Positions 12,621 through 52,898 of a DNA stretch of 64,000 nucleotides are shown here, piece after piece. Made by a program: the position numbers and the translations under genes. The number at the start of each line of letters is the position of its first letter. Positions within the stretch are counted from its first letter, which is position 1. This DNA comes from Carallia brachiata (Eukaryota; Streptophyta; Magnoliopsida; Malpighiales; Rhizophoraceae). Below the pieces are notes generated by a model, which was not told where the DNA came from, made no database searches, and worked only from the letters and a program-made list of their open reading frames with translations. The stretch is from contig JADCRB010000016.1 in the NCBI GenBank assembly GCA_021464245.1, positions 8,251,674 to 8,315,673 of the forward strand. The letters are read 5' to 3'.

Positions 12621-13189
12621 GGCCCCCTTTAATTATTAGCCCTCTATTTTTCACTTTTTGTTTGTTTTTGCAACAAAAAAAATGTATGGCTTTAGGCTTT
12701 CAAAAAAAGAGATAAGGTCCATAAAATCACAATTTCTCACAATTCTTTAATAGTGTGTTTGGAGTGCAGTGATTAGAGGTGAAATATTGAGAGAAGCAAG
12801 AAAATTAGAAAAGAAATGAATAATCAGTTGTTTGGTGTGCAGGTGAAAATAGAAGGGAGTGAAAAGGAAGCAAAAGGCAAGCGAAAATTAGTGTGGGACC
12901 CACGTCAAAAATTTTCTCCCCAAATTGGAGAGAAAGCTGTCAGGAGGCAAACAGTTGTATAGTAAATTTACGAAATTGGCCTCAACAAAAAGGCATAAAA
13001 CTAGGCAATGGAGAAAACAGTAAATTTAGGTCCTGTTTGGAATGAATTTTATTTTCTGTTTTCTGTTTATTTTTCACAAAAAAAAAAAATATGTTTAGTA
13101 TTGATTTTGTTTTCTGTTTTTGTTGAAAAGTTAAAAATGTTTTTCAAAGAAAAAAACAAATTAGGAAAACAATAAAAACTAACTTTCCG

Positions 13190-13880
13190 ATTTGTTTTTT
13201 ACTTTTTTCTATACTTTTTCTACAACCTTTCTCTCTCTATTCACCTTCTCACTCATTTTTCCTCTCTCTATTCATTCTCTCTCTACCCTTTCTCTCCTTT
13301 TTTTCTCTCAACCATTCTCTCTCTACCCTCTCACTCCTTTTTTTATCTCTACCATTCTCTCTCTAACTTCTCTACCATTTTTCTATCTCTACTATTCTCT
13401 CTCTACCCTCTCTCTCTTTTCTCTCTCTACTCATTCTTTCTCTATCCCTGTCTCCTTTTTCTCTTTCTACCATTTTCTCTACTAATTCTCCCTCTTCCCA
13501 CTCTCTCTCTCTCATTTTTCTCCCTCAACCATTCTCTCTAGTCATTCTCTCTATACCCTCTCTCTCTCTCAATTTTCTCTCTACCACTCTCTATTCTTTT
13601 TCTTCCTCTATCATTCTCTCTACTCGTTCTCTCTCTGTACTCTCTCTCTCTCTCTCTTTTCTCTCTCTACCATTCTCTGTCTACCCAAATTTTCTCTGCT
13701 TTCTATCTACCCACATTCTCTCTCCCTTTTCTCACTCTACTATTATCTCTCTACCCTCTCTTTCTCCTTTTTGTCTCTCTATCATTTTTTTTACTTGTTC
13801 TTTCTTTACCCTCTCTCTCTCTCATTTTCTCTACTCATTCACTCTCTGTCCTCTCTCTCTCATTTTTCTTTCTCTACTAT
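13190..13880. repeat. CT-rich microsatellite-like expansion
   Basis: Nearly 700 bp of irregular 'ctctctctacc', 'attctctctctac' and 'tttttctctc' units. It resumes at 14541-14720 on the other side of the nested element, so it was one tract before that insertion. The open frames in it are products of the low complexity. Confidence 0.85.
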
Positions 13881-13888
13881 TCTGTTTA

Positions 13889-14530
13889 GTGTTGTCAAAC
13901 CCGTACCGGACCGGTGACCGGTCAGAAGTCCGGTCTGAGTTGTAGCTTAAATTCAAGTTGGATCAAACCAGTCAAAATCCGGTCAGCAGACCGGTTCAAC
14001 TGGTCCCAAGTTGATCGGGTTGGTCACCTTTAATGGTTAGAAAAAATTTCACGCAACTTTGTAGAATTTGGATTTCAAACCCTTAACTTCCAACATGAAA
14101 GGTAAGTCTTATACCACTAGACCAACTTATAACTTGTTATGATCTTTTTTTTTTTTTTTACTTATTATTTACTCAAATGTCTCATATAATACACACACCA
14201 TCATATGTTTCTAATAAATTAACACTTACTATTTTCTTTTTTTGTTAAGACAATTATTAATTTTTTAAAATTTTTAATTCTACCTTATAATAAATTGTAA
14301 ATCATATTTTTTAAATTTACAAATGTATGTATTCTAATACATGCATATGTATTATAATATTATATTTTACATATAAATTTTGATGTATAATATATATAAA
14401 TATTTATATATATATTTAATATTAAATATTGATTTTATCGATTCAATTTTCGGTTAAACCGGTTAAACAGCTTAGGCCTTGAACCACTAAACTTTCCTGT
14501 TAAATGTCTGGTCCGATTCTTACAATATTG
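13889..14530 (+). mobile_element. Non-autonomous Mutator-like element with perfect 10-bp TSD
   Basis: Flanked by the identical 10-mer ATTCTGTTTA at 13879-13888 and 14531-14540. The ends are related inverted repeats (GTGTTGTCAAACCCG... against CAATATTGTAAGAATCGG...). The first 150 bp are rich in 'gaccggtc' and 'ccggtccg'; the rest is AT-rich. Relatives are at 1878-2136 and 52899-53062. The 10-bp duplication fits Mutator-like elements (9-11 bp). No coding capacity. Confidence 0.8.
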
Positions 14531-25304: not shown

Positions 25305-26076
25305 TTGTAAACATATATAAAAAAAAAAAAGAAAAGTCAAAAGTAAAAAAAAAAAATTAATAGTCGGCTTATTTTTTTCGCAAGCGTGCTTTCACACAAG
25401 AAAGGAACGTTATTCCTTTCGCACACATGTTTTTACAAAGAAAGGGACTTTATTCCTTTTGCAATCGTGCTTTCACACGGAAAAGGATTTTTTTCCTTTC
25501 GCACGCATGTTTTCACACAGAAAGGGACTTTATTCCTTTTGCACGCATATTTTCACATAAGAAGGGAAACTATATAAATAGGCATCCCTCAAGCCTTTCA
25601 ATCCATCCTAGGCAAAGCAAAAATCTCATCTTCTAAAATTTTGCATCTCTTCCTTTCTCTCTCTAAATATTTTGGGTGTATACTCTCTAGCTGCTATTAA
25701 GTTAGATCGGCTAGATCAGAAAACCAAGATATTAAATATTTGAGTGGGATCAAGCCTCCTACGGCCCTTACCGGAGTCTATCCAGTCCGAGTGGGATCAA
25801 ACCTCTTACAGCCCTTAACGGAGTTCTAGCACCCCCTAAGATCAAGCCTCGGCCCTTAGTAGAAATTATTTCCTACAGTTCAAGAGCTTAGTGTAAAAAT
25901 TCAACCTCTTTCGGTCAAGATCAAGTCTTTGCGACCCTTGACTAAATCACACAGGAGTATTAATCAGAAGATCTACCCAGAGATCGAACCAGCATAAATT
26001 TTAAACATTTATCTGTAATTTGTATTTGTTTTTTCGTAGCCTAACTGTTGCAGGCTTTGAATTTACATCGCTCACA
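25305..26076 (+). repeat. 5' LTR of the gag-only element
   Basis: TG...CA termini (TGTAAACA...CTCACA). It contains 'ctatataaatagg' (a TATA box near 25570), then 'gggtgtatactctcta'. The 3' LTR has about 90 bp more: it has an additional 'gagtgagatcaagcc' type unit near 29060-29160. Confidence 0.85.
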
Positions 26077-26100
26077 AATTTTTGGCATGCTCAGTGGGAC
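26077..26100 (+). other. Primer-binding region
   Basis: AATTTTTGGCATGCTCAGTG directly after the 5' LTR, the same as the region after the LTR at 38250 except for one base (GCACGCTCAGTGGGAC there). I cannot assign the priming tRNA with confidence. Confidence 0.6.
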
Positions 26101-26173
26101 ATCTCTGCCTCCCATCTTCTATTCCTTTTTAAAAAAAAATTTAGCAGGAATCCAAAATCGATGTTGTGACAGT

Positions 26174-27386
26174 CATGATGACAAGTGCAACCAACACGGA
26201 AGATAGGATCGCGGAATTGGAAAGCAAAATTTTCCAACTGCTCAAGGCTGTGGAAGAAAAAGATCAACATAACGGTCACCTCAAAGGAAAGGTCCCAATC
26301 CAAGCTGATCGTGAGACCCGCGAAGAGCAGCCGTATCCACCTGGTTTTACCCCAGAAGCAACGCCAGCTGATCTCTTCACTGCGGAAAAGCAACAAGGTA
26401 ATTCCACACAGCTACTGCCTGCAAATTCTGCCGCTTCGCTATTTTTCTAACAATTACAGGATATGATAGCAAATACAATCTATTTGTAACAAAGTGCACT
26501 ATTTCAAGGTTCACAAATATATGTCAAACTGTACACTAAGCGGATCAAAAATCTCAACATGCCTTTGGGCTACCAACTGCCCAAGTTTCGACAATTCAAC
26601 GGACGAGATAATCCCAAACAGCACGTCGCCCACTTCGTTGAAACCTGTAACAATGCAGGAACTTACGAAGATCTCTTGGTAAAGCAGTTCGTTCGTTCAC
26701 TTAGAGATACTGCCTTCACCCGGTTCATAAACCTTGAACCAAAATCAATTGACAGTTGGTAGCAGCCGCAACGCGAGTTTCTCAACAGATTTTTCAGCAC
26801 CCGTCGAATAGTAAGCATGATGGAGCTTACTAGCACTAGACAAAAGAAAGGAGAGCTTGTCATTGAATACATAAACAGATGGCGTGCTCTCAACTTAGAT
26901 TGCAAAGATCGTCTGACGGAGACTTCTGCAGTGGAAATAATGCACTGGGAACTGCTATACATCTTGCAGGGCATCAAATCTCGAACTTTCGAGGAATTGG
27001 CGACTCGCGCACATGATATGGAAATAAGCATAAAAACCTGTGGAGGTACGATTCTCATCCAATTGGGCCAATATGGCGGCAAGAAAGTGATGGCCATTGA
27101 TGCTTCACCAATAAAAGTTGGAGCTAAAGCAAAAATGAGTCCTCCAGCACTGGCAAATCAACCGAAACAACAAGAAAAGGGAAGGACGACATTGCGAGAG
27201 TTGGAACAGAAGAAGTATCCATTCCCCGACTCAGACGTTCTAGACATTCTTGATCAACTTTTAGAAGCTCAGTTGATCAAACTCCCGGAGTGTAAGCAAC
27301 CCAATCACAAGGATCGGGTCAATGTTCTGAAATTCTGCAGGTATCACTGCACAGTCAACCACCCAACCGAGAAGTGCTTCGTCTAA
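26174..27386 (+). pseudogene. Gag-like polyprotein of the gag-only element
   Basis: The amino part has a coiled-coil-like stretch (RIAELESKIFQLLKAVEE) and a PYPPGFTPEA motif. A shift near 26450-26550 then separates it from the capsid-like core (NMPLGYQLPKF, HFVETCNNAGTY, FVRSLRDTAF), which stays in one frame from 26559 to 27386 apart from one TAG at 26760. It ends in a zinc-knuckle-like CRYHCTVNHPTEKC. Gag packages the element RNA. Relative preservation of this frame with no pol behind it suggests late decay, or selection on gag while the element was mobile. Confidence 0.8.
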
Positions 27387-28046
27387 AAGGAGCTGATCTT
27401 GAAGCTCATGGATCAAAATAAAATCATTTTGGACTAGAAAAACGTAGTCTCAGCCAACCAGACTACCGTCCCTTCAAATCTGTCAGAAGAAAGTCAATAT
27501 GAATTTACGCTGCATGCTATCAACGCATCCTGACCTGGTTCGATCAAGCGGTAAACTTTTAAAATTTTACTGCGTAAAAAAAAAAAAAGAAAAGTAAAAA
27601 AAAGGCAAAAAAAAAAAAGAGAAAAGCAAAAAAAAAAATGAAAAAAATGAAAAAGCAAAAAAAAAAAATTGAAATGCACGTGCAAGTTCAAAACCCAGCC
27701 CAAAGTCTAAATTCAGATGTAGGGGCAGATCACAAACCCCGACTCAAATCCCAAAACCACCAAGCCCAAACTTTGGGTTCAAAGTGCAAATTCAAATTCC
27801 AGCTCCAAATCCAAATCCAAATTCGAGTCTAAAAGCCTAAACTCGAACTCCAGCTCAAAGCCCAAATTCACCAAATCTAAACCCGGGTTCAAATTCTAAA
27901 TCCAAATTCCAACCCATAGCCCAAATCCAGATTCGGGGGCAAAGCTTAAACCCTGAATCAGAATCTAAGTCAGCAACTCAGCAGCTTAACAGCTCAATAG
28001 CTCATCAACCCACAGCTTAGCAGCTCAACAACTCCACAAATTAAGA
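27387..28046 (+). other. A-rich and 'cccaaatcc' low-complexity spacer of the gag-only element
   Basis: A poly-purine stretch (about 27575-27670), then short imperfect repeats of 'cccaaattcaaatcc' to about 27960. The full-length relative has an equivalent stretch at 44897-45200. Open frames here reflect composition only. Confidence 0.7.
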
Positions 28047-28465
28047 CTCCTGTCTCGCGCGAGTATAAAAGGCGAACAGTCAAACCAGACTCCTATCTCA
28101 CACGAGTATAAAATACGACAACACAGTTCAACATAGTTCAGTACTCCTGCCTCACATGAGTATAAAAGGTGACAGCGCAGTTCAAAATAGTTTAGCACTC
28201 CTGCCTCGCACGAGTATAAAATGTGACACCGCAGTTCAACACTCCTGCCTCGTACGAGTATAAAAGGCGGCACCACAGTTCATCACTCTTGCCTCGCACG
28301 AGTATAAAAAGCGAAACTGTAGTTTAACACTCCTGTCTCACACGAGTATAAAAGGCGACCCCGCAGTTCAGCACTCTTGTCTCGCATGAGTATAAAAGGC
28401 GAACAATCCAGCAAACCAGACTCCTAACTGGCACGAGTATAAAAGGCAAAACGGCAACAACAACA
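28047..28465 (+). repeat. Nine tandem ~44-bp units, each with a GTATAAAA box
   Basis: Units begin CTCCTGCCTCGCACGAGTATAAAAGGCG or close variants. Starts are near 28047, 28090, 28144, 28198, 28242, 28286, 28330, 28374 and 28421 (spacings 43, 54, 54, 44, 44, 44, 44, 47). Every unit keeps GAGTATAAAA, which looks like a TATA box, while the spacers vary. The full-length relative has one such unit (CTCCTAGCCCGCATGAGTATAAAC) at about 45213, just upstream of its homeobox frame. Confidence 0.9.
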
Positions 28466-28584
28466 CAAGGCCTAGTCGGAGTTAGAAGACTTCAACATTC
28501 AAGGTTTATCAATACGTCTCAAGTTTCAAACTAAATTTCAAGACTCAGTTCGGAGTCCTCACCGACTCTTAAAGTGAGGGCATT

Positions 28585-29447
28585 TGTAAATATATATAAA
28601 AAAAAGGGATAGTCAAAGGTAAAAAAAAAAGTCAATAGTCGGCTTATTCTTTTCGCATGCATGCTTTCACACAAGAAAGGAACATTATTCCTTTCGCACG
28701 CATCTTTTCACACAGAAAGGGACTTTATTCCTTTCGCACACTTGCTTTCACACGAAAAAGGATTTTATTCATTTCGCATGCATGTTTTCACACATAAAAA
28801 GGGACTTTATTTCTTTCACACGCATGTTTTCACACAGGAAGAGAAACCTTATAAATAGGCACCCCTTCAAATCTTTTAATCAATCCCAGGCAAAGCAAAA
28901 ATCTCATCTTCTAAAATTTTGCATCTTTTCCTTTCTCTCTCTAAATATTTTGGGTGTATGTGCTTTAGCTGTCACTAAGTTGAATCCGCTAGATCAAAAA
29001 CCCAAGATATTAAATATCCGAGTGGAATCAAGCCTCCTACAACCCTCACCAAAGTCTATTCAGTCTGAGTGAGATCAAGCCTCCTACGGCCCTCACCGGA
29101 GTCCATCTAATCCGAGTCGGATCAAACCCATACGGCCCTCACCAGAACTAGACCATTCCAAATAAGATTAAGTCTCTACGGCCCTCATTGGAGTTCCAGC
29201 ACCCCCTGAGATCAAACCTCGGCCATTAGTGGAAATTATTTCCTACAGTTCAAGAGCTTACTATGGAAATTCAATCTCTTTCGGTCAAGATCAAGTCTTT
29301 GCGACCCTTAACTAAATCACACCAGAGTATCAATTGCAAGATCTACCCAGAGATCGAACCCGCATAAATTTTTAATTTTTAATTGTAGTTTGTATTTGTA
29401 TTTTCGTAGCGTAACTATTGTAGGCTCGAAAATTTATACCGCTCACA
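28585..29447 (+). repeat. 3' LTR of the gag-only element
   Basis: Preceded by a purine tract (AAAGTGAGGG) that serves as the plus-strand primer. Starts TGTAAATA and ends CTCACA. Same family as 25305-26076, with an extra internal unit and scattered substitutions, so the insertion is not recent. Confidence 0.85.
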
Positions 29448-31561: not shown

Positions 31562-33553
31562 ATGTTCACAATGGAGGGCGATGATATGTTCACCATTTTA
31601 CGTATCATTTCCATGGCCCAACACATTACAAGGCCGCCGGGCCAACAGATTGCAAGGCCACCACATAATGTGTCTTTGCCCAGCACATCCGCCACTACTA
31701 GCACGGCCGCCACAACTGAAATTAGCAATGTGGGCAGCAGTGAGTTTGATCATGAAAGCCATGAGTGGCTCCGAAGTCAATTAAAGATGCTGGAGAAGGA
31801 TCTTGCCGATGTCACCAAAGGCGTTAGTAGCATCAGCGTTGTAACGGGAGATGTCAGCTGTTTGCTCACGTCGCTTAAAAACCAAGCTAACATCCTGCAG
31901 TCCATTTTGTGGGATGTACTTCTGGCTCCTGGTGGCGATACTATCCTCCCTGCTGGCCAAGTTAACGCCGGCGTCCAGAGGGTTGCTGATGTAGTTTTAA
32001 TGTTGAAGTCCCAAATTCCTAGTACAGGAATTTTAAGAGTGCAAAGTGTCTCCGATTTAATAAACCATTTGGTTAAGATGCCGCCCTCAAGAGTATCTAG
32101 GTTGTTCACATTTGCAAGAATTTGAGAACTATGAGCGTCTCGAGGAAAATTCCTCCGCTTTCCCAGAGAAAATATTACGGCAGTGTTTGTTTTGCTTCTC
32201 CGCTTTCCCAGAGAGTTATGTTGCCGACAAGACACTGTTGATGTACTGGTGGATTGGAGAGGGCCTGATAGATACTCAAGAAAACCCTGGGAAAATTGTC
32301 GAGGAAATTACCAACGAAATTGTGAAGCGGTTCATGGAGTTTCATTTCATCGAGCCTGTTACCAAGAATGGGAAATTGATCGGGCTTCGGATGCCTCCGT
32401 TTATTCGTTATGTAGTTGCGTATCTTGCAGAGCGCGCCAATTTCTTTGATTTTGATTTCGAATGGAATCCCACGTCAAACTTCCGATTGTGCCAGAGGGC
32501 GTGCTTGATAGAAACTGCAGATGGTTCTTCTCAACAACAGCTGATTGAAGGCGCTCGATTGCATCCAGAGAAACTAAGAACCCTGTTCAATTTCAATGAA
32601 CGCATGGTTGATATTACAGGGGAATGGTTCCGGAAAATAAGAAATGTTAATGTTCTCTATTTGGGAGTGTGGGATAAACAAGATGAGTGGAAATTTGAGC
32701 TAAGAGGCAGCAAATCCTTGAAGTGGTTGAGACGTATGAAGCATTTGAGATTTCTTGGCCTCCAAGGATTTGAAACAAGTTGGGAGATCCTAGAGGCTAT
32801 TGAGGAGGTCGAAAACTTGAGGATTTTGACTCTCAAGAAGTGGCGGGGACACTTTTTAAAATTAAAAAACAGTAAGTCGCTGCGAAGTTTATCACACTTG
32901 GAGTTAGGCCGTGGGGAGTACCCGCCCGAGGTGACAAGACAATTCACAGAACTCCAAGTTTTGAAGGGATTTGAAATTTCTGGGCATCAATACTACGATG
33001 GTACCTTTTTGAATGATTTAGCACGATTGACGAAGTTGAGGAAATTGAGCATCACTTCCACTTTTTTCTCCCAGTTTGGTGATTTAGACATGAGAGCACT
33101 AGAAAGTCTCAAGTCTCTTCGAAAACTTACTATTAAGTGGTCCCCCCCTGAGGACCAATATGGGGGCACACACTTTCCGACACTGCCAGGTTTGCAGAAA
33201 CTGGCTCTCCGGTTTTATCCCTATGCCACTGGAGGTGTCTTGAAGGCGGCATTCCCGAACCTCCAGAAGCTCCACATCAGAGGGGGAAAGGTAAGTGACC
33301 TGCCAGACTTAAGCGTAAAAATACTACGTCTCATAGATTTGCTTATTTGTACTTGGACTGGGATAGACTAAGGCATAAGTTCCCGGGCTTGATTTATCTA
33401 GAAAAAGATAAATGCCCCCATCTACAATCTTTCCCCTGCGATGCAAATGGAGTGTGGATCAACAACGAAGAGCTGACAGAGAAGTTGTTGGAAGAATTGG
33501 GATTCAGTTGGTCATTCCTTGCCACTTATCCTTCACTTGAGCAACGTGTGTGA
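31562..33553 (+). pseudogene. RPP13-like-4 / At5g45510-type NLR, no P-loop, two frameshifts
   Basis: The product would be an NLR-type immune receptor or a truncated relative. From the first ATG a frame of 187 codons encodes a Ser/Thr-rich leader and a helical amino domain (SQLKMLEKDLAD) and stops at 32123. From about 32112 the frame one base over encodes a winged-helix-like segment (LFCFSAFPESYVADKTLLMYWW, shown here in part: CFSAFPE, YWWIGEGLID), then LRRs (RNVNVLYLG, MKHLRFLGL, LTKLRKLSI, LPGLQKLAL) to 33371. A second shift near 33340 leads to the conserved end (CPHLQSFPCDANGVWIN, stop 33551-33553). There is no Walker A, kinase-2 or GLPL motif. The amino domain runs straight into the winged-helix region, as I recall for the At5g45510-like group. 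Direct GT-AG splicing cannot repair the first shift, because the candidate intron is only 18 bp. Either a pseudogene or two assembly errors. Confidence 0.8.
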
Positions 33554-37466: not shown

Positions 37467-38250
37467 TGTAAACGAAGAAAAAAAAATAATAGTCAATGGT
37501 TGGCGTTGCTGACCTTGAAATCGGCAATGCTGACCAAGGAAAATTTTTTTTCAAAAATATTCCTTTCCCACGATATTTTTACACGGGAAATGATCTCTAT
37601 AAATAGGTCATTACCTCTCAGTTCAAAACATATTCAGAAAATCTGTAAATAGAAAAATACAGAGAATTTGGGAGAAAAAGAAAATTTTGAAAATCTCTCA
37701 AGAAAATTTCTCCTTTTTTATGTATTTTTACTTGCAGTATACTCTCTTAACTTTTTTAGAGATATTTCAGGGGTAAGTTCCAAAAATTTGCTGTTTCCAT
37801 TTTTAAGGTTATTTTTAGATTTATATTCTTTGATCGCTCTAAATTTGAATTTGTGAGATATAGATATGAAAATATCAAAATACTGCAAATTCGGCTGGGA
37901 TCAGCCTCATACGGCCTCAGAAAAGTCCAGGCAGCTCATCCGAGAACAAATCCCTTCGACCCTCGGTGAATAAAGTCAGATTGGCTTAAATCAGGTCTCT
38001 GCGGTTCTTAACCATAATCTAAACGTCCAAACTAGATCCAGTTTCAGTCTACTAGTTCAAGATAAAGTTGTGGAAATTATTTCTGTCAAGATCAAGCTCG
38101 TGCAGCCTTAACAGAGTCAAAAAAAAGGAACACTAATCGGAGGATATACGGAGATCGACCTCACGTAAATTTTCTTTTATTTTAAATTTTTTTGTAATTT
38201 ATTTTGTATTTTCGAGTTTAATTGTTTTAGATTCGAAATTTACCGTTACA
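37467..38250 (+). repeat. 5' LTR of the full-length element
   Basis: TG...CA ends (TGTAAACG...GTTACA). A hairpin near its start has loop GACCTTGAAATC (37511-37522), which is exactly inverted in the 3' LTR. A TATA box lies in 'ctctataaataggtc' (about 37590). Confidence 0.9.
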
Positions 38251-38274
38251 AATTTTTGGCACGCTCAGTGGGAC
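38251..38274 (+). other. Primer-binding region
   Basis: AATTTTTGGCACGCTCAGTG follows the LTR directly and matches the gag-only element at 26077 apart from one base. The tRNA is not assigned. Confidence 0.6.
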
Positions 38275-38284
38275 CTCTTCACCT

Positions 38285-38853
38285 CCCATCTCTTGTTCCT
38301 AAAAAAAAAACAAAAAGAAGCAGCGGAGGAAAAAGAAAAAAAAGAAAAAAAAAAGAAAAAAAAGAAAAAGAAAAAAAGAGAAAAAGACAAAACAGAAAAG
38401 AAGACAAAAAAAAGGTAAAAAGTAAAAAAAAGTAAAAAAAAAAGTTAAAAAAAAAAGAAAAAGAAATTTTTAACAGGTATCCAGCACATCAAATGACACC
38501 AAAAGAAGTACAGCTGTCGGTACCAAAAAAAGGCAACGGCTCCTTTACCTGCATCAACTACCCTACCTGAATACGCAGGCCCAGAAACCCGTGGACGGAC
38601 ACGATTTCTTGCCGTCCAAACTCGAAAAAAATATTAAAACGGAGAGTCCACAGCTCGCACAGCAATAGGATCTCTCCCCTGATTCTCTTGCCGTATGGAG
38701 GAGTCGATCACCCACCCTGATCGAAGTCGGGGCAACGTGACGAAGCCTGCTCAACAGAATCCAACATATTATGTAGAGATCCACACAGAAGAATCATAGG
38801 AATTAGAAGAGTTTTCTCCCCCAGTCTTTCACGGAGCCTCATCTGTTGCCGTC
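38285..38853 (+). other. Element leader between primer site and gag
   Basis: A long A/AAG-rich tract (38300-38465) followed by about 390 bp of less biased sequence with no recognised domain. Confidence 0.6.
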
Positions 38854-40115
38854 ATGATGACCAATACAACTAGTACAAAAGGAAGAATTTCAGAATTGGA
38901 GAACAAGATTTTGCAGCTGATCAGAGTCGTAGAAGAGGATCAACAGATCTTCGCTCTCAAAGGAAAGACCCCGATCCAAATTGATCCCGAGATCCGCGAG
39001 GAGCAACCATATCCACCCGGTTTCACTCCAGAAGCCACACCAGCAGACGTCTTCACTGCAGAAAATAAATCAGGTAGTTCTATACAGCTGCCACTCTCAA
39101 ATTCTGTAGCTTTGCTATTTGTTCGACAATTGCAGGAAATGATAGCTAATACGATCCGCCTGCAACAAGTTACATCCTTCCAAGGATCATAGATGTACGT
39201 CAAACCGTACACCAGACGGATCGAAAATCTCAACATGCCTTTGGGCTACCAGCCGCCCAAATTTCAACAATTCGATGGACAAGGTGATCCCAAACAGCAC
39301 ATCGCCCACTTCGTTGAAACCTGCAACAACGCAGGGACTTACGGAGATCTCTTGGTGAAGCAGTTTGTTCGTTCACTCAGGGAGACCGCTTTCAACTGGT
39401 TCATAAATCTTGAACCAGAATCGATCGACAGTTGGGAACAGCTGCAACAAGAGTTTCTCAACAGATTTTTCAGCACTCGAATGATGGTAAGTATGATGGA
39501 GCTTACCAGCACCAAACAAAGGAAATGAGAGCCTGTTGTCTAATATATTAATAGATGGCGTGCCCTCATCTTGGATTGCAAAGATCATCTGACGGAGACT
39601 TCTGCCGTGGAGATGTGCATCCAGGGAATGCATTGGGAGCTGTTATACATCTTGCAGGGTATCAAACCCGAACCTTCGAAGAACTGGCGACCCGCGCACA
39701 TGATATGGAGATAACCATCCAGACTTTCGGGGGCACGGTTCCCATCCAGCTGGACCAACAAGGTGGCAGAAGGGAGATTAAGAAACCCAACAGCTCTGGA
39801 AAAGGGAAAGAAGTGATGACTGTTGAAGCTGCACCAGTAAAAGTAGGAGCCAAAGCTAAAGTAAATCCTCCGACCCTAATAACTCAGCCAAAATAATAGG
39901 AAAGGCGGAAAGTGACATTGCGAGAGTTGGAGCAAAAGCAGTATCCATTTACTGATTCAGACGTTCCCTACATCCTTGAGCAACTCCTAGAGGCGAAGCT
40001 GATCGAACTCCTAGAGTACAAGTAGTCGAATGAAAAAGATCGAGTCAGCGATCCAAGATTCTGTAAATATCACCGCACAGTAAGTCATCCAACTGAGAAA
40101 TGTTTTGTCCTAAAG
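38854..40115 (+). pseudogene. Gag-like region of the full-length element
   Basis: Coiled-coil-like amino part (RISELENKILQLIRVVEE), PYPPGFTPEA, then, after an in-frame TAG at 39190, the capsid-like core (NMPLGYQPPKFQQFDG, HFVETCNNAGTY). Further stops at 39526 and 39541 and a shift near 39660 precede GYQTRTFEELATRAHDME. The zinc-knuckle-like CKYHRTVSHPTEKC is at about 40060-40112. It is more damaged than the gag of the 25305 element. Confidence 0.8.
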
Positions 40116-40322
40116 TAGCTAATCATGAAGTTCAAGAGTCAGAATAAAATCATTTTGGACTAGGAAGGTGTAACCTTGACAAACCAGACCACCATCACTT
40201 CAAAATCATCAGAAGAGGTGACACACCGTAAGGAGGAGCCGCTCAACAACAAAAAGTCGACAACAGAGAAGGTATATGAAGCTCTCTAAACCCTTTTCGC
40301 TAAACCTCAACTGTTTATAGCT

Positions 40323-40817
40323 TTGCAATCAACAGAAGTGTGGCAAAATCAAGTCATCAATACTCTCCAGACCTCAATTGGATCTCTACCATCAAGTAAT
40401 TTCAACTCGGTGGAGCATCAGGTGGCCCAAAATCATGTCGGATATTACTCCGCTATCTCATTTTCGGATGAGGATCTCCTGCTGGGGTCCAAACCCCACA
40501 ATCAACCGCTGTATGTATCAGGCTATGTGAGAGAACAGAAGGTCCGACGTATTCTGATTGACGATGGCTCGACAGTCAATATTATCCCAAAATCCACTAT
40601 AAAGGAGCTCGGCATCGGCATTGATGAGTTATCAGACAGCCGCTTGATGATTCATAACTTTGATCAAGGAGGACAGAAAGCAATTGGGATGATTCGTTTG
40701 AAGCTAACTATCGGTAATCTCACTTTTAGCACTCTATTTCATGTGATCGATGCACGCACCGCATATAAGATGTTGCTAGGACGACTGTGGATTCATGGAA
40801 ATGAAGTTGTGCTCTGA
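40323..40817 (+). pseudogene. Retroviral-type aspartic protease region
   Basis: 164 codons with the active-site motif LIDDGSTVNIIP (DDGS at about 40560-40571) and a downstream hydrophobic KMLLGRLWIH segment. It would cleave the element polyprotein. Upstream and downstream frames are broken, so it cannot be made as part of a complete polyprotein. Confidence 0.8.
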
Positions 40818-41759
40818 AGTCTACATCAGTGCTTCAAGTACTACAAGGATGGCGTTCAAAAGGAAATCTACACCGACACAGATAATCCGAAGATCATTCC
40901 ATCAAAAGTTACTTGGACTGGGGGCATCCACAAAAAGGGAAAAGCTGTCGAAGAACCTGCCGATGCTCAACCTCAAGCTCCAACAAATGAAAAGCTGCCA
41001 CAGCTGCTGAACTTCGTCCGAAGGATGTTGCATCTTCAAGCTCCACTCCATCCTACGCTATGTGCCAAGTCACGACGCCAGAAGGTCAACCCCCTTTCTC
41101 TTATTGTATTGATCTTAAACAGGAGTAAGGACATACCAACCCAAGACAAAAGAACTGCACAACCTGAAGACTTACACTTACCGATACCAAAGATTGAGCC
41201 GGTTTTGTCCTCAAAACCATTAAAAGGCTTCGTCAGACCACACACGGGGGCAGTCGAAGGCGGCTCACTTCCAGAAAGAAGAGTACACGAAGGATTCGAT
41301 CCTAATGCATACAAGCTCTTGGCCAAGGCAGACTATGACTTCTCAAACCCGAGCACAATGGGTACGCTGCCGTCCACACATGGCGCCACTTCTCAATCAT
41401 CACAGTCCCGACCTGGCTTAGGCTATCAGGAGAAGTCCCCTGTGCGAATCACGCTAAAGAGCCAAAGCCGAGTAGCTAAAGCACGTGCCATCACCACCAC
41501 CAAACAAGACAGACTTATCCAGTAAACAAAGAAGATGAAGTCAGGGCTTTACATTTCATGTCACAATTAGCGAGGAGGCTGAGTCCGACTCATCAGAAGG
41601 CGAAGTAAAGGAGGCTCCCCCGGAACTTGAAGATGGTGGCCAAGGAACTGTTGATGAACTCAAGGAGGTTAATCTTGGCTTTCTGGAAGATCCTCGACCT
41701 ACATTTGTAAGTGCTTTACTTACTGCAGAAGAAGAACAAGAATATGTTAGGTATTAAGT

Positions 41760-43450
41760 CAATACAGGGACGTGTTCGCATGGAGTTACAAAGAAATGCC
41801 TGGACTTGACCCGAAGATTGCAGTGCATCGTCTAGCAGTAAAGAAGGGTGTTCGTTCTGTCAAGCAGCCACAACAACGGTTCTGCCCGGAACTCATTCCA
41901 CAAATCGAGGAGGAGGTTAACAAGCTGATCAATGCTGCTTCATCCGAGAGGTCACCTACCCAACGTGGATTGCCAACATAGTCCCGGTAAGAAAGAAGAA
42001 TGGACAGTTGAGGGTATGTGTTGATTTTCGAGATCTTAACAGGGCCTGTCCAAAAGATGACTTTCCATTGCCCATAACGGAGATCACAGTCGATGCAACA
42101 ACGGGTCACGAAGCATTGTCTTCATGGATGGTTCTTCAGGCTATAACCAAATCAGAATGCACCAGAAGACGAGGAGTTGACAGCATTCCGCACCCCAAAA
42201 GGTATATACTGCAAAGTTATGCCGTTTGGATTAAAAAATGCTGGCGCCACTTATCAACGTGCTATGCAAAAATTTTTGATGACATGCTGCACAAGATTGT
42301 AGAATGTTATGTTGATGACTTAGTTGTAAAGACTAAGAAGCGCAAAGACCACCTCGAGGATCTCAAGACGGTGTTAAAGACTTCGAGGCATCAGCTAAAA
42401 TGAACCCTCTCAAGTGTGCATTCGGTGTCACATCAGGAAAGTTTCTTGGGTTCGTGGTGCGCCATCGTGGAATCGAAGTTGATCAGTCAAAGGTTGAGGC
42501 AATTCAAAAGATGCCTGAACCTAAAAACCTGCACGAGCTGCGAAGTTACAAGGAAAGCTGGCCTACATTCGCCGTTTCATTCCAATTTAGCTGGGAGATG
42601 TCAACCTTTCCATCGGTTGATGAAGAAGGATGTCAACTTCGAGTGGGACGAAGCTTGCAGCAAAGCCTTTGAGAGCATAAAGAAGTACCTTTCCAATCCA
42701 CCGTCCTGGGAGCTCCAATTCAAGGAAAGTCGTTGATTCTCTACATTGCAGCGCAGGAAAGATCTTTGGGAGCCTCTTGCACAGGAAAATGAGCAGGGAA
42801 AGGAAGTTGCCCTGTTACTTGAGCAGAACACTAAACGGTCCGGAGCTGCTAGTTATTCGCCCATTGAAAAGACATGTCTAGCACTGTTCTTTGCCATTGA
42901 AGCTGAGGCACTACATGCAAGCTCACACGGTACGTCTCATTGCCAGAGCTGATCCTGTCAAATATATCTTATCTAGACCAATCTTGTCAGGACGACTTGC
43001 CAAGTGGGCAGTAATCCTAAAGCTACGACATTGTCTACGTGCCTCAAAAAGCAGTCAAAGGACAAGCCTAGCAGACTTCCTTGCAGATCACCCTATCCGT
43101 CAGATTGGGAGTTCACAGATGATCTTCCAGATGAAGAGGTCTTTTATTGAGACACTGCCATGGACGATGTTCTTTGATGGTGCAGCAAGCGTGATGGTGC
43201 TGGTGCGGCATAGTGTTTGTCACTCCTCAACGACAAATACTACCATATGCTATCATTCTCGGTGAGTTATGTTCAAATAATGTTGCTGAATACCAGGCTT
43301 TGATCATTGGTCTTCAAATGGCTGTCGATATGAAGATTCCAACTATAGAAGTCCATGGAGATTCCCAGCTCGTCATCAACCAACTTACAGGATTGTATGA
43401 TGTGAAGAAAGAGGACCTTGCGCTTACCATCAACGTGCTCGACAGCTAAT
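41760..43450 (+). pseudogene. Reverse transcriptase and RNase H region
   Basis: Reverse transcriptase begins near FAWSYKEMPGLDP (41772) and shows VCVDFRDLNRACPKDDFPLP (42013) and the catalytic YVDD (about 42309-42320). The primer-grip side (GKFLGFVV, 42438) is in another frame. RNase H follows with NNVAEYQALIIGLQMA and HGDSQLVINQLTG near 43275-43400. At least five frame changes make it inactive. Confidence 0.85.
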
Positions 43451-43849
43451 GGATGAATTTGAAAGCATCACCTTGGAGCATGTGCCTCGACGAGAAAACA
43501 CTCAGGCAGACGCGTTGGCTAACCTGGCCACTCTCTTGCAAAGTCAGAAATCCAGGCTACAGTTGTTGCCGTATGCCAGAAATGGATAGTGCCACAGAAG
43601 GATGATGAAGAAACTACAGCAGCCAACGCTGTATCTGTACGTCTCGCGGAGGACGAGGATTGGCGCCAACCAATCATTGACTACCTACAGCACGGGAAGC
43701 TGCCCGAAGATCGTCGTCATAAGACAGAAATTCAACGACGAGCTCCCCGCTTCATATATCTCAAGGATGCTCTGTATCGAAGGTCTTTTGATGGAGTTTT
43801 ACTTCGCTGCCTAGGCAATGAAGAGGCAAAACAGGCTCTCACTGAAGCA

Positions 43850-44896
43850 CATTCTTGTTTGTGGCGGACATCAATCGGGGCCTAAGTTGCACTTCCACTC
43901 AGAAGGATGGGATACTACTGGCCAACCATGGTACGTGATTCAATTGAGTTTGCTAAAACCTGTCAAGCTTGTCAATTTCATGCAATTACATACATCAACC
44001 ACCGGAGCCACTGCATCCAACTGTCTCATTGGCCCTTTGAAGCTTGGGGTCTCGACTTAGTGGGGCCCTTGCCAAAGTCATCCCTGGGTCACCTGTACAT
44101 CCTCGCAGCAACCGACTACTTCTCAAAATGGGCGAAGCCATTCCACTTAGAGAGGTAAAGAAGGAGCATGTTGCCAATTTCATCGGACTCAGCTGATCTA
44201 TCGCTATGGAGTCCCTCGATTCATCATCACTGATAATGGTAAGCAGTTCTACAACAGCTTGATCGACAAACTCTGCGAGAAGTTCAAGTTCAAGCAGTAC
44301 AAGTCATCCATGTACAATGCCCCAGCAAATGGCTTGGCTGAAGCATTCAACAAGACCTTATGCAACCTATTGCGGAAGGTAGTCTCTAAATCCAAAAGAG
44401 ATTGGCATGACAGAATTCCGGAGGCATTATGGGCGTATCGTACAACTTACCGGACTCCAACACAGGCGACGCCATACTCACTTGTCTACGGTGTCGAAGC
44501 AATACTGCCGTTGGAAACACAGATTCCATCTCTGCGCATGGCTGTTCTGGAAGGACTCACACGGAGGAGAATGCTCGCCTACGTCTGGATGAGTTAGAAG
44601 CCCTCGATGAAAGGAGGCTCGAAGCACAACAGCAACTTGAGTGCTACCAAGCCCGGCTCACCAACACGTTCAACCGCAGGGTCCGCCCTCGATCTTTTCA
44701 AGTTGGAGACCTTGTTCTTGCAGTACGACGGCCCATCAACATGAAGCATCGGCCTGGTGACAAGCTTACTTCCAAATGGGACGGGCCATACTTAGTGCAG
44801 GAGGCCTATACTCACAACGCTTACATGCTGTCAGACCAAGAAGGCGTCCGAATCGGCCCAATCAATGGTAAATTTCTGAAACAGTATTATGTGTAA
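43850..44896 (+). pseudogene. Integrase region
   Basis: A HHCC-type remnant (GYYWPTM, CQACQFHA), then catalytic-core motifs: WGLDLVGPLP with the first aspartate (44044), DNGKQFYN with the second (about 44233), and AEAFNKTLCN with the glutamate (about 44338). The carboxyl part has a GDLVLAVRRP box and ends ...LKQYYV at 44896. No chromodomain is evident, as expected for Tat-type elements. Several frame changes. Confidence 0.85.
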
Positions 44897-45210
44897 ATAT
44901 GTTGAAAAAAAATCAAAAAAAAAAAAAAAAGAATAAAAAAAATCAAAAGAAAAGAAAAAAAAAGTTCGGAAGTCCCAATCTGAAAGTCCAAGCGAAAATC
45001 CAAGCCCAAACACTTGAGCCCAAATCAGAAAACACAAGCCCAACTTAAAAGCCTAAAAACTAAGTCCAAATTTAAAACCCAAACACTCGACCCAAATCTA
45101 AAAGTCCAAGTCCAAAACCCAAACACTCGACCCAAATCCAATCCAAAAAACCAAAACCCAAAAATCTCAAGTTTCAGACACAAGTCCAGAACTCAGGTTC
45201 AAAATCCAAT
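44897..45210 (+). other. Low-complexity spacer after pol
   Basis: An A-rich stretch, then imperfect repeats of 'cccaaacactcgacccaaatcc'. Same position and style as 27575-27960 in the gag-only element. Confidence 0.7.
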
Positions 45211-45212
45211 CC

Positions 45213-45265
45213 AACTCCTAGCCCGCATGAGTATAAACTGTGAACGGCCCAAAAATATAAAAGCG
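45213..45265 (+). promoter_or_regulatory. TATA-bearing unit upstream of the homeobox frame
   Basis: One copy of the ~44-bp unit (CTCCTAGCCCGCATGAGTATAAAC) followed by AAAATATAAAAGCG. The second TATA-like box is about 95 bp before the ATG at 45351. Spacing and sequence suit a core promoter for the homeobox frame, but this is inferred. Confidence 0.45.
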
Positions 45266-45350
45266 ACGGAGGGTTTGAGTTTGAAACTCAGCCTCAGTCT
45301 CAACCAATCTTCACTACATACCAGACCTTTGCTCCTCTGTTACAAGAAAG

Positions 45351-45960
45351 ATGGAACGAGTTGTAGAATCTCAAGACAAGGGAGAAGAAAGGTCACCCCG
45401 CATAAGGTGGCAACCAACCATGCTACAACTGCAAATTTTGGAGGAAGTCTTCCACAACAATGGAGGTATTATTCATAATACATCTCAGATTTACCAACTT
45501 GTCTCACGATTGTGCCCGCTCGGGGCGATCGAAGGAAAAAATGTGTTTTATTGGTTCCAGAATCGGAGAAAGAGGAAGAAACCAGTACTGAGAACTGCTT
45601 TTTCCAAAGAATAGTCCGATAGTAGATCCCACCGGTACAGCTTCGCCCTCAAATGAAGCAAGTCTGAGTTCTACCACTGCAATAGTCACTTCAGGCTATA
45701 ATGATCAAAGCCGTAGCCTGTGGGATCATGCGTACTAGTCCTGGTGGTCTTACGGAATCAGTTAAGGGTTCATCCCTCCTAAGTACTTAAGTTCAGAAGG
45801 AACTTTTCCAATAAGAAGAAGTCATTCCAGCGAAACTTTGCCTCTCTTCCTAGAATATTCCAGCTGCATCAACCAGCGGGAAGGCTCCAGCGACGTCAAC
45901 ATCATCGGCCCACCAGACGAGGCCGAACTTGACTTGGAGTTGCGCCTCAGGCCCCGCTAG
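45351..45960 (+). pseudogene. WUSCHEL-type homeobox sequence inside an LTR retrotransposon
   Basis: WUS/WOX proteins are plant homeodomain transcription factors that keep stem cells undifferentiated. The first 87 codons hold a homeodomain at residues ~17-79. It begins IRWQPT, has FHNNGG where WUS has YYNNAI (other WOX proteins are one residue shorter there), and ends AIEGKNVFYWFQNRRKRKK; W, F and N of the recognition helix are kept. From RW to WFQN it aligns with WUS without gaps. A one-base shift at 45595-45612 then puts the rest in the next frame. Despite TAG at 45736 and TAA at 45763, that frame carries the WUS-box TLPLF (45835-45849) and a terminal EAR-like LDLELRL (45928-45948), two codons of RP and R before TAG. 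All three WUS landmarks are in order, at a length (~200 codons) usual for WOX genes. No introns are apparent, which suits an RNA-level capture. Confidence 0.88.
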
Positions 45961-46741
45961 GACGGTTGACAAGATAAGGTGCAACGACTTCTGCAGCACA
46001 CGACAACGACTTCTGCAACACAGGGTAACGACTTTCGTGACACGTTTCAGCCGCTGCCGCTTTTGTCTCTTATGCGGGAAAGGGACGTGGATAACCCTGC
46101 TTGATTCTGCGTACCTTCTTTTTGACTTTTCAAAAAAAAAAAACTCTTTATTGTATGTATATATATCCTGCATGCCCGAGTTATAATACTCACCCCTCAG
46201 CTCTTCTTTTTCTCGAAAAGAAAATGGCTAGTCTCTGCACTTGTCTCAGAAAGTCCTTTGATCAAGAAGTTGGAGGTACATGAGCTAAGAAAAGAAGAAG
46301 TAGTATTTCTCGAGGGATTCCTAATAGCCCTCGAAACTCAGTCTCTAACGCCATCGGTGTCATGGAGTTCCAACTACTCTCCTTAGTTCACATCTACCAC
46401 AGAGAGATGAGAAGCTGCAATCATCCTAATCTTCATTTAGATGTGGCGACGTATAGGAAAGTTCCAACTACTCTCCTTACGTTGGAGCAGACTTGGGAAT
46501 CATCACTACAGTCAGTCTCTTTGTGTGCCGGTCTTGAAGTTTCGTAGTGCCGGTCTTGAAGGTTCAAGTTCTTTGCCTATCGGATCGTCCTCACCAGAGC
46601 TATGGAACTTTAAGACATATAAGAAATCTTTTGCGAGCTATGGAAGCTCGACTTCACCTGGAGCCAGAATGTCAATTTTTATATTGGCTGGGCTGCTAAC
46701 TTCCTCAAGATCGTATCGGATCCTTATTGCGATCCAACAAC
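45961..46741 (+). other. Rest of the extra segment after the homeobox
   Basis: Less AT-rich than the surroundings. It includes direct repeats such as 'gttccaactactctcctta' (about 46367 and 46460) and 'agtgccggtcttgaag'. No protein family is recognised. The gag-only element lacks this whole stretch and rejoins at 'tagtcggagtt' (46750). Confidence 0.6.
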
Positions 46742-46867
46742 AGCATGCATAGTCGGAGTTCGAAGATTTCAACGTTCAATGTTCACCAGGACATCTCAAA
46801 TTTCAAACTGGACTTCAAGGCTCGATTCGGATCACGTCCGCAAAGTACTTTCTTACCGACCCTTGAA

Positions 46868-46878
46868 GTGGGGGTATT
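46868..46878 (+). other. Polypurine tract
   Basis: GTGGGGGTATT directly before the 3' LTR, the expected place for plus-strand priming; AGTGAGGGCATT is the equivalent in the gag-only element. Confidence 0.6.
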
Positions 46879-47660
46879 TGTAAACGAAAAAAAAAATTAA
46901 TAGTCAATGGTCGGCGTTGCCGATTTCAAGGTCGGTAACGCCGACCAAGGAAACAAAATTTTCAAAAATATTCCTTTCCCACGATATTTTCACACGAGAA
47001 AGGAGCCCTATAAATAGGCCATTGCCTCTCAGTTCAAAACATATTCAATTTGTAAACAAAAAAATACAGAGAATTTGAGAGAAAAAGAAAATTTTGAAAA
47101 TCTTTTAAGAAAATTTCTCTTTTTCTTACATATTTTTACTCTGCAGTATACTCTCTTAGCTCCTTTTTGAGAGATATTTCAAGGGTAAGCCCTTAAACTT
47201 TTGTTGTTTCCATTTTAAAGATATTTTTGGGTTTATATTCTCCGATCTGAATTTGTGAGAATATAGATCTGAAAATATCAAAATACTGCAAATCCAGTTG
47301 GGATCAAGCCTCATACGGCCATCAGCAAAGTCCAGGCAGCTCATCCGAGAGCAAGTCCCTCCGACCTTCGGTGAAATTAAGCCAGATCGGCTCAGATCAG
47401 GTCTTTACGGTTCTTAACTATAGTCTAAATGTCCAAACCAGATCCAGTTTCAGTCTACCCAGTTCAAGATAAAGCTGTGGAAATTATTTATGTCAAGTTC
47501 AAGCTCGTGCAGCCTTTGACGGAGTCAAAAAAAGGAACACTAATTGGAGGATCTACGGAGATCGACCCCACGTCAATTTTCTTTGTTTTAAATTTTTATT
47601 TGTAATTTATTTTTATATTTTCGAGTTTAATTGTTTTAGACTTGAAATTTACCCGTTACA
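46879..47660 (+). repeat. 3' LTR of the full-length element
   Basis: Matches the 5' LTR with many substitutions. The hairpin near its start has stems GGTCGGCGTTGCC and GGTAACGCCGACC and loop GATTTCAAGGTC (46922-46933), the exact reverse complement of the 5' LTR loop. Confidence 0.9.
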
Positions 47661-48408
47661 GCTATAAATTTTGAACTTGCAGCAGTTAGACTAAAAAATG
47701 TAAATGTAAATTACAAATAAAAATTTTAAAATAAAATAAAATTGATGTGAGGTTGATCTTCATATGAATCATTTGATTAGTATTCCTTTGTGATGTTGTC
47801 AAGGGCTGTACGAGCTTGATCTTTACAGAAATGAATTCCATAATTTTATCTTGAACTGAATAGACTTTGGGCATATGCCTGTACTACAGTGAAAACCATA
47901 GAGGTTTAATCTGGCTTGAACTAACTTAATTTTACTGAGAGTCGTAGAGACTTGTTCTCGAATGGGCTTACTGGACTTTGCTGTGGGACGCAATAGATTT
48001 AATCTTAGATAAATATTAATATTTTAGATTTTTACTCTCGTAAATTCCAATCTAAGGCAACTGGAGAGTATAAACTTAGAATATACTTGAAAATAAGTAT
48101 TAAATATTTTAGGTTATATATCTGAAATATCTCCTTTAATGAAGTTTGAGGAGTATACGCTCAATATACAAAAATGTAGCGAGGGAGAGAAATATTTTAA
48201 ATGTTTTTGTCAGAGTTTGTTTTTGCGAAAATTTTCTGATGCCTTGAGAATAGGAGAGAATGGCCTTTTATAGGTCATCCTCCCCTTACTGTGCCACCAA
48301 CCCTTGACCAACCTTGATTTTGAAGGTCTACAGTCGCTGACCCTTGACCAATCAAATATATATTACATTTACAATAATTGTTTAAGACACCGTCAGGTGG
48401 CTATAGCC

Positions 48409-48640
48409 TTAGAGAGTTTCTATAGTTGTTATATACGACGTGACAGAAGAAATTATATGATGTGTTAAAAGAAATTATACGAAGTGTAACCAACTATTAA
48501 AAGAAATTTTAGTTTTTAATAGTTGGTTACACGTCATATAATTTCTTATGACACGCCGTATAATTTTTTTTCTAATTTCTATATCAAGTCGTATAATTTT
48601 TTTTTGTCACGTCATGTATAACATATATAGAAGCTACCTA
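48409..48640. mobile_element. Foldback MITE
   Basis: Nearly its whole length is an inverted repeat: 'tagttgttatatacgacgtgac' on the left pairs with 'gtcacgtcatgtataacata' on the right, and the centre is 'aaccaactattaaaa' facing 'ttttaatagttggttac'. Outer bases are GAGAG...CTACC with TTA/TAA-like flanks. No coding capacity. It sits 35 bp outside the solo LTR's target duplication. Confidence 0.75.
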
Positions 48641-49082
48641 ACAATATAACTATTTAGCATTTTCCAATTGTTTATTTTCTTCTTTGGTTTCTTTTTATAC
48701 GAGAAGAATTGTCTTATTTTTGGATTAATTATTTTTGTTTCTGGAAAATAAAGGGAGAAAGAGAGGAGAGAGAAAGGATGAGGAAAAGGAGACAGAAGTC
48801 AAGAGGAGCGAAATGAAACTTTTTTTAAAAATATGTATTTTTGTATTTTCTATTTAGTTTTTTTATTTTTATTATTTATAAAATAAAATGACACATATTG
48901 CGATGTGATCAATTTTTTTACTAATGGGCATACCACGTAACATACTAACAGATTAGGTAAGGGAAAATCGACGGTGTTTTAGATTTGTTATAAAAAATTT
49001 AGTTATACTAAATTAATTTATTTGTAAAATTGATATTAAATTTGTTATTTTACGCAAAATTAATAATTTTTTATGTTAACCC

Positions 49083-50029
49083 TAAAAAATGATTAAAAGA
49101 AAGACTTTGTGCATCACTCACTGGTGTTATTATTACTTAGGATTCCTGTATTAAGTAAATAATAAAAGTGTCCATAATAATTAAATAAATTAGAATCAAT
49201 GACTTTCAATTAAAAGAATTCCTTTTTCGTAATGTGATCTTCCGATTTTTTTGCAAAACAAAATATTAGATAACAACACTTGGGGATGTTTGTTTAGTAC
49301 ATAAGAATTCGAATAAAGTAATTGATTTTTATTCTACTGTTTGTTTTTTCATAATTTTATTTTTATTTCTTTAAATTTAGGGATGTAGTTCATGTATCTA
49401 AAAAAATTATGATTCTCACCTTAAAGACATCAACCATTCACATTTTCGGCATAACTAACTCAACAGCCCGTTACCAAGTTATTAAAAACAAGCTTCAATT
49501 TGATATGAACAAAAAAGAAAAAAAAATTATGGTTGCAAGCTTGTGCAGGTTTGTCCACAATGTATCAGTTCTCATTCTCAATTTTACATGTACCAAGTCC
49601 ACCTTGGATGTTTTCATTCAAAATTTCTATCGTGTTATGTTCAAATTAAGCCTAATAAATCTTTAACTAATCCTTGATCTAATTTGGGTTTGCCTATTTT
49701 TAATACTCTGAATAATTAGTTCTTTTAACAACTCATTGTAAGTAAAAAAAATTCCTTGTACTCTTTTTCTCCGCAGAAAAATAAAAGGAAAAACGTGTTC
49801 TTTCTTTCTGAAAAGCAACCCACAATTAAGTGAGGAAACTAATGATTTCAATGAGTTGGGAGTTTCCCAAAGTATCTTGAACAATCTTGAAAATTGTTTG
49901 AACAATCTCGAAAATTTCCTCTGCTTCTTTTGGTATATTATTGACAAGCAAGCTAATAATCAGACACGCGGCATCCTTTTCTTTGAAAGAAATAAGTGAA
50001 GAGAATAATCATATTTAACAATGTCGTGG
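49083..50029. other. Intergenic DNA, no gene seen
   Basis: AT-rich; open frames such as 49409-49666 show no recognised domain. A short near-repeat 'caatcttgaaaattgtttgaacaatctcgaaaatt' type sequence occurs near 49879. Confidence 0.4.
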
Positions 50030-51639: not shown

Positions 51640-52015
51640 TTGAAGTATTTGTACATAATTTTAAAAATTTAAGTAGTTAAGTTATCAAAACTAAAAATTT
51701 GAGTAGAAATAATAAAAATTTGAGTAAAAATTTTACTCAAATTTTGAATAGTTGTACATAATTTTAAAAAGTTGAGTTGTTGGTACTGAAAACTAAAAAT
51801 TTGAGAAAAAGTATAAAAAATTTGAGTCTAGTTCTATTTAAATTTTGAGTATTTATACATAATTTAAAATTTTGAGTAGTTGGTGTTGGAAACTAAAAAT
51901 TTGAGTAGAAATACTAAAAATCAGAGTCTACTTCTACTCAAAATTTAAGTATTTGTATATAATTTTAAAAATTTAAGTAGTTGATGCTTACAATTAAAAA
52001 TTTGAGTCTTTAAAA
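51640..52015. repeat. ~101-bp minisatellite, about four copies
   Basis: Core 'gtacataattttaaaa' recurs near 51650, 51755, 51855 and 51956 (spacings 105, 100, 101), with 'aaaatttgagtagaaat' between. Each unit also contains the inverted pair 'tactcaaatttt' / 'aaaatttgagta'. Confidence 0.8.
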
Positions 52016-52507: not shown

Positions 52508-52898
52508 NNNNNNNNNNNNNNNNNNNNNNNNNNNNNNNNNNNNNNNNNNNNNNNNNNNNNNNNNNNNNNNNNNNNNNNNNNNNNNNNNNNNNNNNNNNNN
52601 NNNNNNNNNNNNNNNNNNNNNNNNNNNNNNNNNNNNNNNNNNNNNNNNNNNNNNNNNNNNNNNNNNNNNNNNNNNNNNNNNNNNNNNNNNNNNNNNNNNN
52701 NNNNNNNNNNNNNNNNNNNNNNNNNNNNNNNNNNNNNNNNNNNNNNNNNNNNNNNNNNNNNNNNNNNNNNNNNNNNNNNNNNNNNNNNNNNNNNNNNNNN
52801 NNNNNNNNNNNNNNNNNNNNNNNNNNNNNNNNNNNNNNNNNNNNNNNNNNNNNNNNNNNNNNNNNNNNNNNNNNNNNNNNNNNNNNNNNNNNNNNNNN
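52508..52898. other. Assembly gap (391 N)
   Basis: A run of N. Any frame crossing it is meaningless. Confidence 1.

Follow-up and report, generated by a model that had tools for sequence, protein, structure and literature searches.

A WUS-type open reading frame (ORF) is, as we hold to be almost certain, a regular gene of a Gypsy retrotransposon family in Carallia brachiata, where it has multiplied along with the element many times and into the recent past. The best explanation overall, to which we assign a probability of roughly 0.6, is that the family carries a diverged WUS-type gene encoding a functional repressor, for which we propose a stem-cell benefit. A high-copy WUS-type gene within a Gypsy family is surprising, yet it has a close precedent in Vigna. 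We focus here on one element in a window of 64,000 nucleotides (the whole stretch of DNA that was analysed, G000:C58:8251674-8315673), on its relatives in the 337.5-Mb assembly that contains it, and on the host's own WUSCHEL genes.

Structure of the element in the window

The element is 10,194 bp long (37467-47660, all features on the forward strand), is of Gypsy, Tat-like type and contains the WUS-type ORF between the integrase and the 3' LTR, which confirms the location given in a preliminary description of this DNA. It is bounded by a 5' LTR with TG...CA ends (37467-38250) and a paired 3' LTR (46879-47660), which are 86% identical over 801 columns, with 82 mismatches. The primer-binding-site region (PBS), TTTTTGGCACGCTCAGTGGGACC, lies immediately 3' of the 5' LTR (38251-38275); L061 and L068 have nearly the same sequence directly after their LTR. 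The polypurine tract (PPT), GAAGTGGGGG, lies directly 5' of the 3' LTR (46865-46874) and is identical in L052, L055 and L042. Between them are a gag piece (39193-39528; PF03732, 3.2e-07), an aspartic protease piece (40323-40817; PF13975, 8.8e-05), a broken reverse transcriptase piece (41921-42403; PF00078, 3.5e-06), RNase H-like RVT_3 pieces in two overlapping frames (43195-43589; PF13456, 1e-11 and 3.5e-07), integrase pieces for the zinc-binding and core parts (43886-44597; PF17921, 1.3e-05, and PF00665, 3.4e-04) and a C-terminal SH3-like tail of pol (44411-44896; PF24626, 4e-04). The element thereby shows the Ty3/Gypsy order of LTR pair, PBS, gag-PR-RT-RH-INT and PPT, with no separate Pfam match for the first RNase H. 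The matches to PF13975, PF00078, PF00665 and PF24626 are below the curated cut-offs because this copy is broken, its gag-pol being scattered over many frames. We take the RVT_3 pieces to be the second RNase H (aRH) of Tat elements, and the position of this match (PF13456, 43195-43586) between RT/RH and INT points to the Tat lineage; no chromodomain was reported among the integrase-end pieces scanned. No matching target-site duplication (TSD) was seen for the window copy, nothing reached the gathering score in the Rfam scan, and no relative was found among viral contigs.

The window also contains a piece of a related element (25909-28620), whose gag region is 75% identical to the WUS-carrying element (70-75% overall). 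It matches that element only in the LTR-to-gag and PPT/LTR parts, with no match to pol or to the WUS gene, so that the gene is not universal among relatives. An inverted LTR-like stretch, 72-80% identical, follows directly after the 3' LTR (47701-47983). Compared by eye, the 3' LTRs of L052, L055 and L042 are very dissimilar between copies at their start and conserved at their end. Elsewhere in the window, an ORF at 32112-33371 resembles a piece of an NLR resistance gene (LRR_14, 1.8e-15; winged helix WH_DRP, 1.4e-06) and is preceded by an ORF with no Pfam match (31562-32125); strand asymmetry is strong at 13001-14000 (GC skew -0.63, AT skew -0.42); a 100-base tandem repeat, 80% identical, occupies 51763-51962; and there is a run of N at 52508-52898.

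Homology and motifs of the WUS-type ORF

The homeodomain part of the gene is an ORF of 87 aa (45351-45614) that matches the Pfam Homeodomain (PF00046) at 8.8e-11. By sequence, its closest solved structure is WUSCHEL (6ry3, 5.7e-15), followed by STENOFOLIA (6wig, 8.1e-13), and the remaining 16 structures listed score 0.23 or worse. The alignment to 6ry3 is gapless, whereas that to STENOFOLIA requires a one-residue gap, since the ORF keeps the extra residue of WUS that STENOFOLIA lacks; the gapless alignment and extra residue claimed in the preliminary description thus hold. A structure model of the homeodomain ORF, for which 13 plant proteins were aligned with it, has a mean pLDDT of 74 (87-91 for residues 21-70 and 68 for residues 71-80). 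The best match of the predicted fold is the WUS-HD structure 6ryl, with WUS-HD structures at rank 1 and ranks 3-9 and STENOFOLIA at rank 2.

The WUS box TLPLF (45835-45849) and a terminal EAR-like LDLELRL (45928-45948) follow 3' of the homeodomain. The order of the three landmarks is as first described. In the window copy the two motifs share one frame and the homeodomain lies in another; a premature stop closes the homeodomain ORF, which makes the WUS gene of this copy a pseudogene. Intact copies elsewhere in the family encode about 207 aa, with homeodomain, WUS box and terminal LxLxL in frame. Of 22 intact ORFs, 16 have an in-frame ETLPLF and six a version with one or two residues changed; ETLPLF is also in frame in 26 of 28 ORFs from a sample chosen by noncoding DNA. 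An LxLEL-type end is present in 22/22 and 28/28, respectively, although for the 28 this end was part of the selection rule.

Upstream of the gene, a TATA-like box, TATAAAA (45256-45262), might serve as a promoter. It stands 95 nt 5' of the ATG in 41 of the 45 copies with enough 5' sequence, which suggests that the ORF may have a promoter of its own; this conservation is weak evidence, because the flanking DNA is about equally conserved.

The identification of the gene as WUS is borne out by homology and motifs. In a homeodomain tree of 27 rows, the copies from the element cluster together (100/100) at the end of a very long branch and are not placed within any WOX clade. A protein search with an intact ORF gave 416 matches, of which the best 120 were listed; of 121 proteins compared, 118 have the ordinary WFQNHKARERQ and 3 a near variant, and none of these resembles the element protein. 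The one Vigna protein among the best 120 of the 416 is an ordinary WUS.

Copy number, position and age in the family

Searching the genome with the 87-aa ORF returned 1632 first-look candidates, and all 150 matches that were scored are 84-100% identical to it. This count is a lower bound; the window copy is among the 150 together with two segmental duplicates of it, the three being a single event. The window locus is present in three near-identical copies, the flank at 47700-49200 being 100% and 98% identical over 1501 bases to C58:6.83 Mb and C132:0.39 Mb. Such copies could mislead a copy count, and they are what would favour a one-off origin of the window gene, by insertion of host WUS, as a nested retrogene or through an assembly join. 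Against this, many contigs have insertions with the gene at the identical place, two of them with their own TSDs, and we regard a one-off event as ruled out by these independent copies.

Two further samples were drawn without reference to the gene itself. The first used as query a noncoding stretch of the young copy L052, located 3' of the gene and 5' of the PPT, and 40 of 1309 candidates, L052 included, were scored. They are 95-100% identical in the query DNA and all 40 carry the WUS gene at the identical place, with only its last part visible in L112. The check proposed in the preliminary description, whether the gene sits at one position in multiple insertions, hence came out in its favour, and the outcome it had named as fatal, a single insertion aligning to host WUS with introns, did not occur. 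In this sample, 39 pieces contain at least 94% of the gene and could be assessed; 28 of these have a frame that stays open past the EAR-like end, the start codon being reached in just 9 of the 40 pieces. The second sample, with the leader sequence after the 5' LTR as query, yielded 40 places, 14 of which were matched by eye through their coordinates to known WOX places and are uninformative on absence; of the other 26, four were fetched blind and 4/4 carry the gene, one copy (L148) being cut at the piece end.

After removal of L002 and L003 (segmental duplicates of L001) and of L006 (= L039), 86 rows represent 85 distinct places, and 31 of the 86 rows are open to the end with LxLxL. This figure is not an estimate of the intact share, as L039-L058 were picked largely for long open frames, and the openness rule was permissive, admitting L038 with I as its first residue, L040 with an altered tail and L044 with LGLEL. 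Intact WUS-type ORFs are frequent among the family copies looked at.

LTR dating was tried on eight copies and gave three LTR pairs, with one 5' LTR cut by the piece end; the other five had no LTR match in the 5' piece. Gaps apart, the pairs differ at 4 of 754 columns (L061/L052), 15 of 629 (L065/L055) and 18 of 689 (L068/L042). Exact 5-bp TSDs (CTCAT, CGCAC) flank two of these three copies, L065/L055 and L068/L042, and none was found in L061/L052. At general substitution rates of about 0.7-1.3e-8 per site and year, the youngest copy would have inserted well within the last half million years, and the window copy about 4-8 million years ago; some copies of the family are thus very young, and that in the window is old.

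Origin of the gene

The host has two WUS genes of its own, L059 (C90) and L060 (C65), each with three coding blocks, and hence two introns, by tblastn with annotated plant WUS proteins. The 624-nt element gene shows no intron-sized gap across 47 aligned rows (a few of them duplicates), so that its apparent lack of introns, suspected from the window copy, extends to the family. Because host WUS has two introns and the element gene none, the element probably acquired the gene via spliced RNA. We propose that a spliced WUS transcript was captured, with a template switch of the reverse transcriptase as the probable mechanism.

In other respects the host genes resemble the element gene, having a homeodomain with the WUS extra residue, a WUS box and a terminal LxLxL, although the host protein is longer (about 307 aa for L059 when its coding blocks are joined) and its homeodomain is identical at 32 of 62 residues. 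Host WUS is no closer to the element gene than are the WUS proteins of other plants: against each of 11 WUS proteins, from the host, other Malpighiales, cotton, a legume, asterids and Nelumbo, the element homeodomain is identical at 30-32 of 62 residues (48-52%), while identity is 14-24% in the linker, 7/9 in the WUS box and 3-4 of 11 aligned residues in the terminal motif. Since homeodomain identity is nearly equal across the 11 proteins, the donor cannot be named. The capture would have happened long ago or have been followed by fast evolution.

Host WUS itself has its best protein matches, among the 120 listed, in Erythroxylum novogranatense (64 and 66%) and Ricinus (63%); the Vigna WUS proteins listed are at 56-58%, with Vigna unguiculata at 58%. 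The motif YYNTGLRSPNA is common to host WUS and both E. novogranatense WUS proteins and occurs in no other of the 11 rows; as it is present in both host paralogues, the two species perhaps share a duplication. These results make Malpighiales likely as the order of the host. In the homeodomain tree, which is without Erythroxylum, the two host genes cluster with rows from Podostemaceae (94/85), a family that also came up, by coverage, in the search with the intact ORF, but no Podostemaceae protein is among the best 120 matches listed for host WUS.

Constraint and decay among the copies

The evidence for selection on the element gene is mixed. Over deep time constraint is visible, as the homeodomain (48-52%) and the WUS box (7/9) contrast with the linker (14-24%). 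Among copies, counted after removal of L089 (= L036), homeodomain variants present in at least 5 of 85 copies comprise 4 nonsynonymous (N) and 11 synonymous (S) changes and the rarer ones 63 N and 29 S (Fisher p 0.003), with a neutral expectation of 2.4-3.3 N per S. This is suggestive of homeodomain constraint and is confounded by sampling: the contrast may be an artefact because the copies were ranked by homeodomain similarity, a ranking that can lose subfamilies with altered homeodomains. Outside the homeodomain there is no frequency contrast (57/32 for common and 218/100 for rarer variants, p 0.44). The comparison of codon positions 1 and 2 with position 3, made on 39 copies without L026 and L034, gives 0.47 for the homeodomain, 0.98 for the linker, 1.16 for the C-terminus and 0.85 overall, and the noncoding distance in 39 copies is 0.12 on the 3' side and 0.076 on the 5' side. 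The pN/pS ratio is 0.46 overall, 0.16 in the homeodomain, 0.73 in the linker and 0.51 in the C-terminus, for copies that were homeodomain-ranked and include one place twice (L006 = L039), and we give these values no weight for that reason. For copies selected through their noncoding DNA, variation is in line with neutrality (N15/S4 for singletons and N7/S2 for shared variants), with little power as the copies are too alike. At the C-terminus, these sequence comparisons indicate no constraint among copies.

Premature stops before the WUS box recur, one of them in 9 of 85 copies and three others in 5-8 copies. Some carriers are adjacent in a tree without support values, and none of the four stops forms a single clade. 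Either truncated lineages have spread, the C-terminus being dispensable or the copies being moved in trans, or the stops have arisen repeatedly.

Much of this is what one would expect if a spliced WUS cDNA had been picked up once and copied along with the element without function, the intact copies being merely young, a possibility that we take seriously without favouring it. Copies that are 95-100% alike in their noncoding DNA need no selection to have open frames, the N/S ratio outside the homeodomain does not drop with variant frequency, and premature stops are recurrent. Unconstrained parts should, on the other hand, decay alike, whereas the homeodomain and the WUS box survive beside a linker only 14-24% identical to WUS. 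Furthermore, the gene is present in the old window copy as well as in young copies, and the homeodomain site-frequency contrast, with its sampling caveat, also speaks for function.

Proposed role and comparison with known systems

On balance we prefer the view that the family carries a diverged WUS-type gene with a working product, and we lean slightly towards at least some copies encoding a functional transcription factor. A sense transcript of the element ORF would start at a TATA-box promoter of its own and encode a homeodomain repressor acting in the nucleus, which would bind WUS-like sites and use the WUS box and the EAR-like end to recruit TOPLESS. More speculatively, expressing cells could be kept in, or pushed towards, a stem-cell state within the cell lineage leading to gametes, through which new insertions would be inherited; we consider such a putative meristem or germline benefit to the element doubtful. 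Against this reading count the recurrent premature stops, the poor retention of the terminal motif (3-4 of 11 residues) and the lack of enrichment of WUS motifs in 12 LTRs.

As a special case of function, whose odds overlap with those above, the WUS-type protein might regulate the element's own LTR or internal promoter and not host cell identity. We think this unlikely: the WUS motifs TTAATGG, TCACGTGA, TGAATG and TAAT are not enriched in 12 LTRs relative to shuffles, a result to be read with the possibility that the true site of so diverged a homeodomain may differ. In its favour, the place between pol and the 3' LTR is that of additional ORFs in plant LTR elements for which a regulatory role is proposed in the passages concerned (PMC7264820, PMC11963269). 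Such ORFs, described there for Retand and others, provide an extra coding region at the same position in Gypsy elements; those of Retand, on the other hand, are antisense, with a TRP28 domain in 97% of clusters, whereas the element ORF here is sense and plainly WUS-derived.

Among the closest known systems is that of Vigna marina and V. riukiuensis, where, according to a 2023 meeting report on work by Naito (PMC10714607), WOX genes lie mostly between identical LTRs with TSDs and exceed 1000 copies in V. riukiuensis. Those elements resemble this family in that WUSCHEL-related homeobox genes are LTR-flanked and at high copy number; the host differs, and a shared origin of the two would be hypothetical. 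Among the literature matches listed, with subscription journals and preprints largely outside their range, there was no WOX-carrying element other than those of Vigna. The passages concerned with cotton WOX genes report transposable elements near these genes (PMC5501002) and others treat WUS in Cladopus (PMC7109043), neither describing an element with a WOX gene of its own. In a survey of extra domains across 121 angiosperm genomes (PMC9289625), Phalaenopsis Gypsy elements are described with a captured AlkB-type RNA demethylase, likewise a host-derived gene fixed as an extra ORF of a Gypsy lineage, and Citrus Gypsy elements with a YgdH (LONELY GUY) domain, which represent capture of a cytokinin-pathway gene, an enzyme as opposed to the transcription factor here. 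The words homeobox, homeodomain and WUS are absent from the main text of that paper.

Implications

Meristem-related genes have been taken up in unrelated plants, namely WOX in Vigna, LONELY GUY in Citrus and WUS in this host. One could imagine that a retrotransposon lineage keeps its own stem-cell regulator and transposes in the gamete lineage, and that with the Vigna and Citrus elements it forms part of a recurrent strategy of hijacking, although we regard this wider idea as improbable. For studies of the gene family, genome-wide counts of WOX genes can be inflated by elements of this kind. If the element protein works, C. brachiata would harbour a selfish element with many copies of a stem-cell switch, and this would be relevant to the route by which transposons enter the gametes of plants, which set no germ line aside, and to what silences them in meristems.
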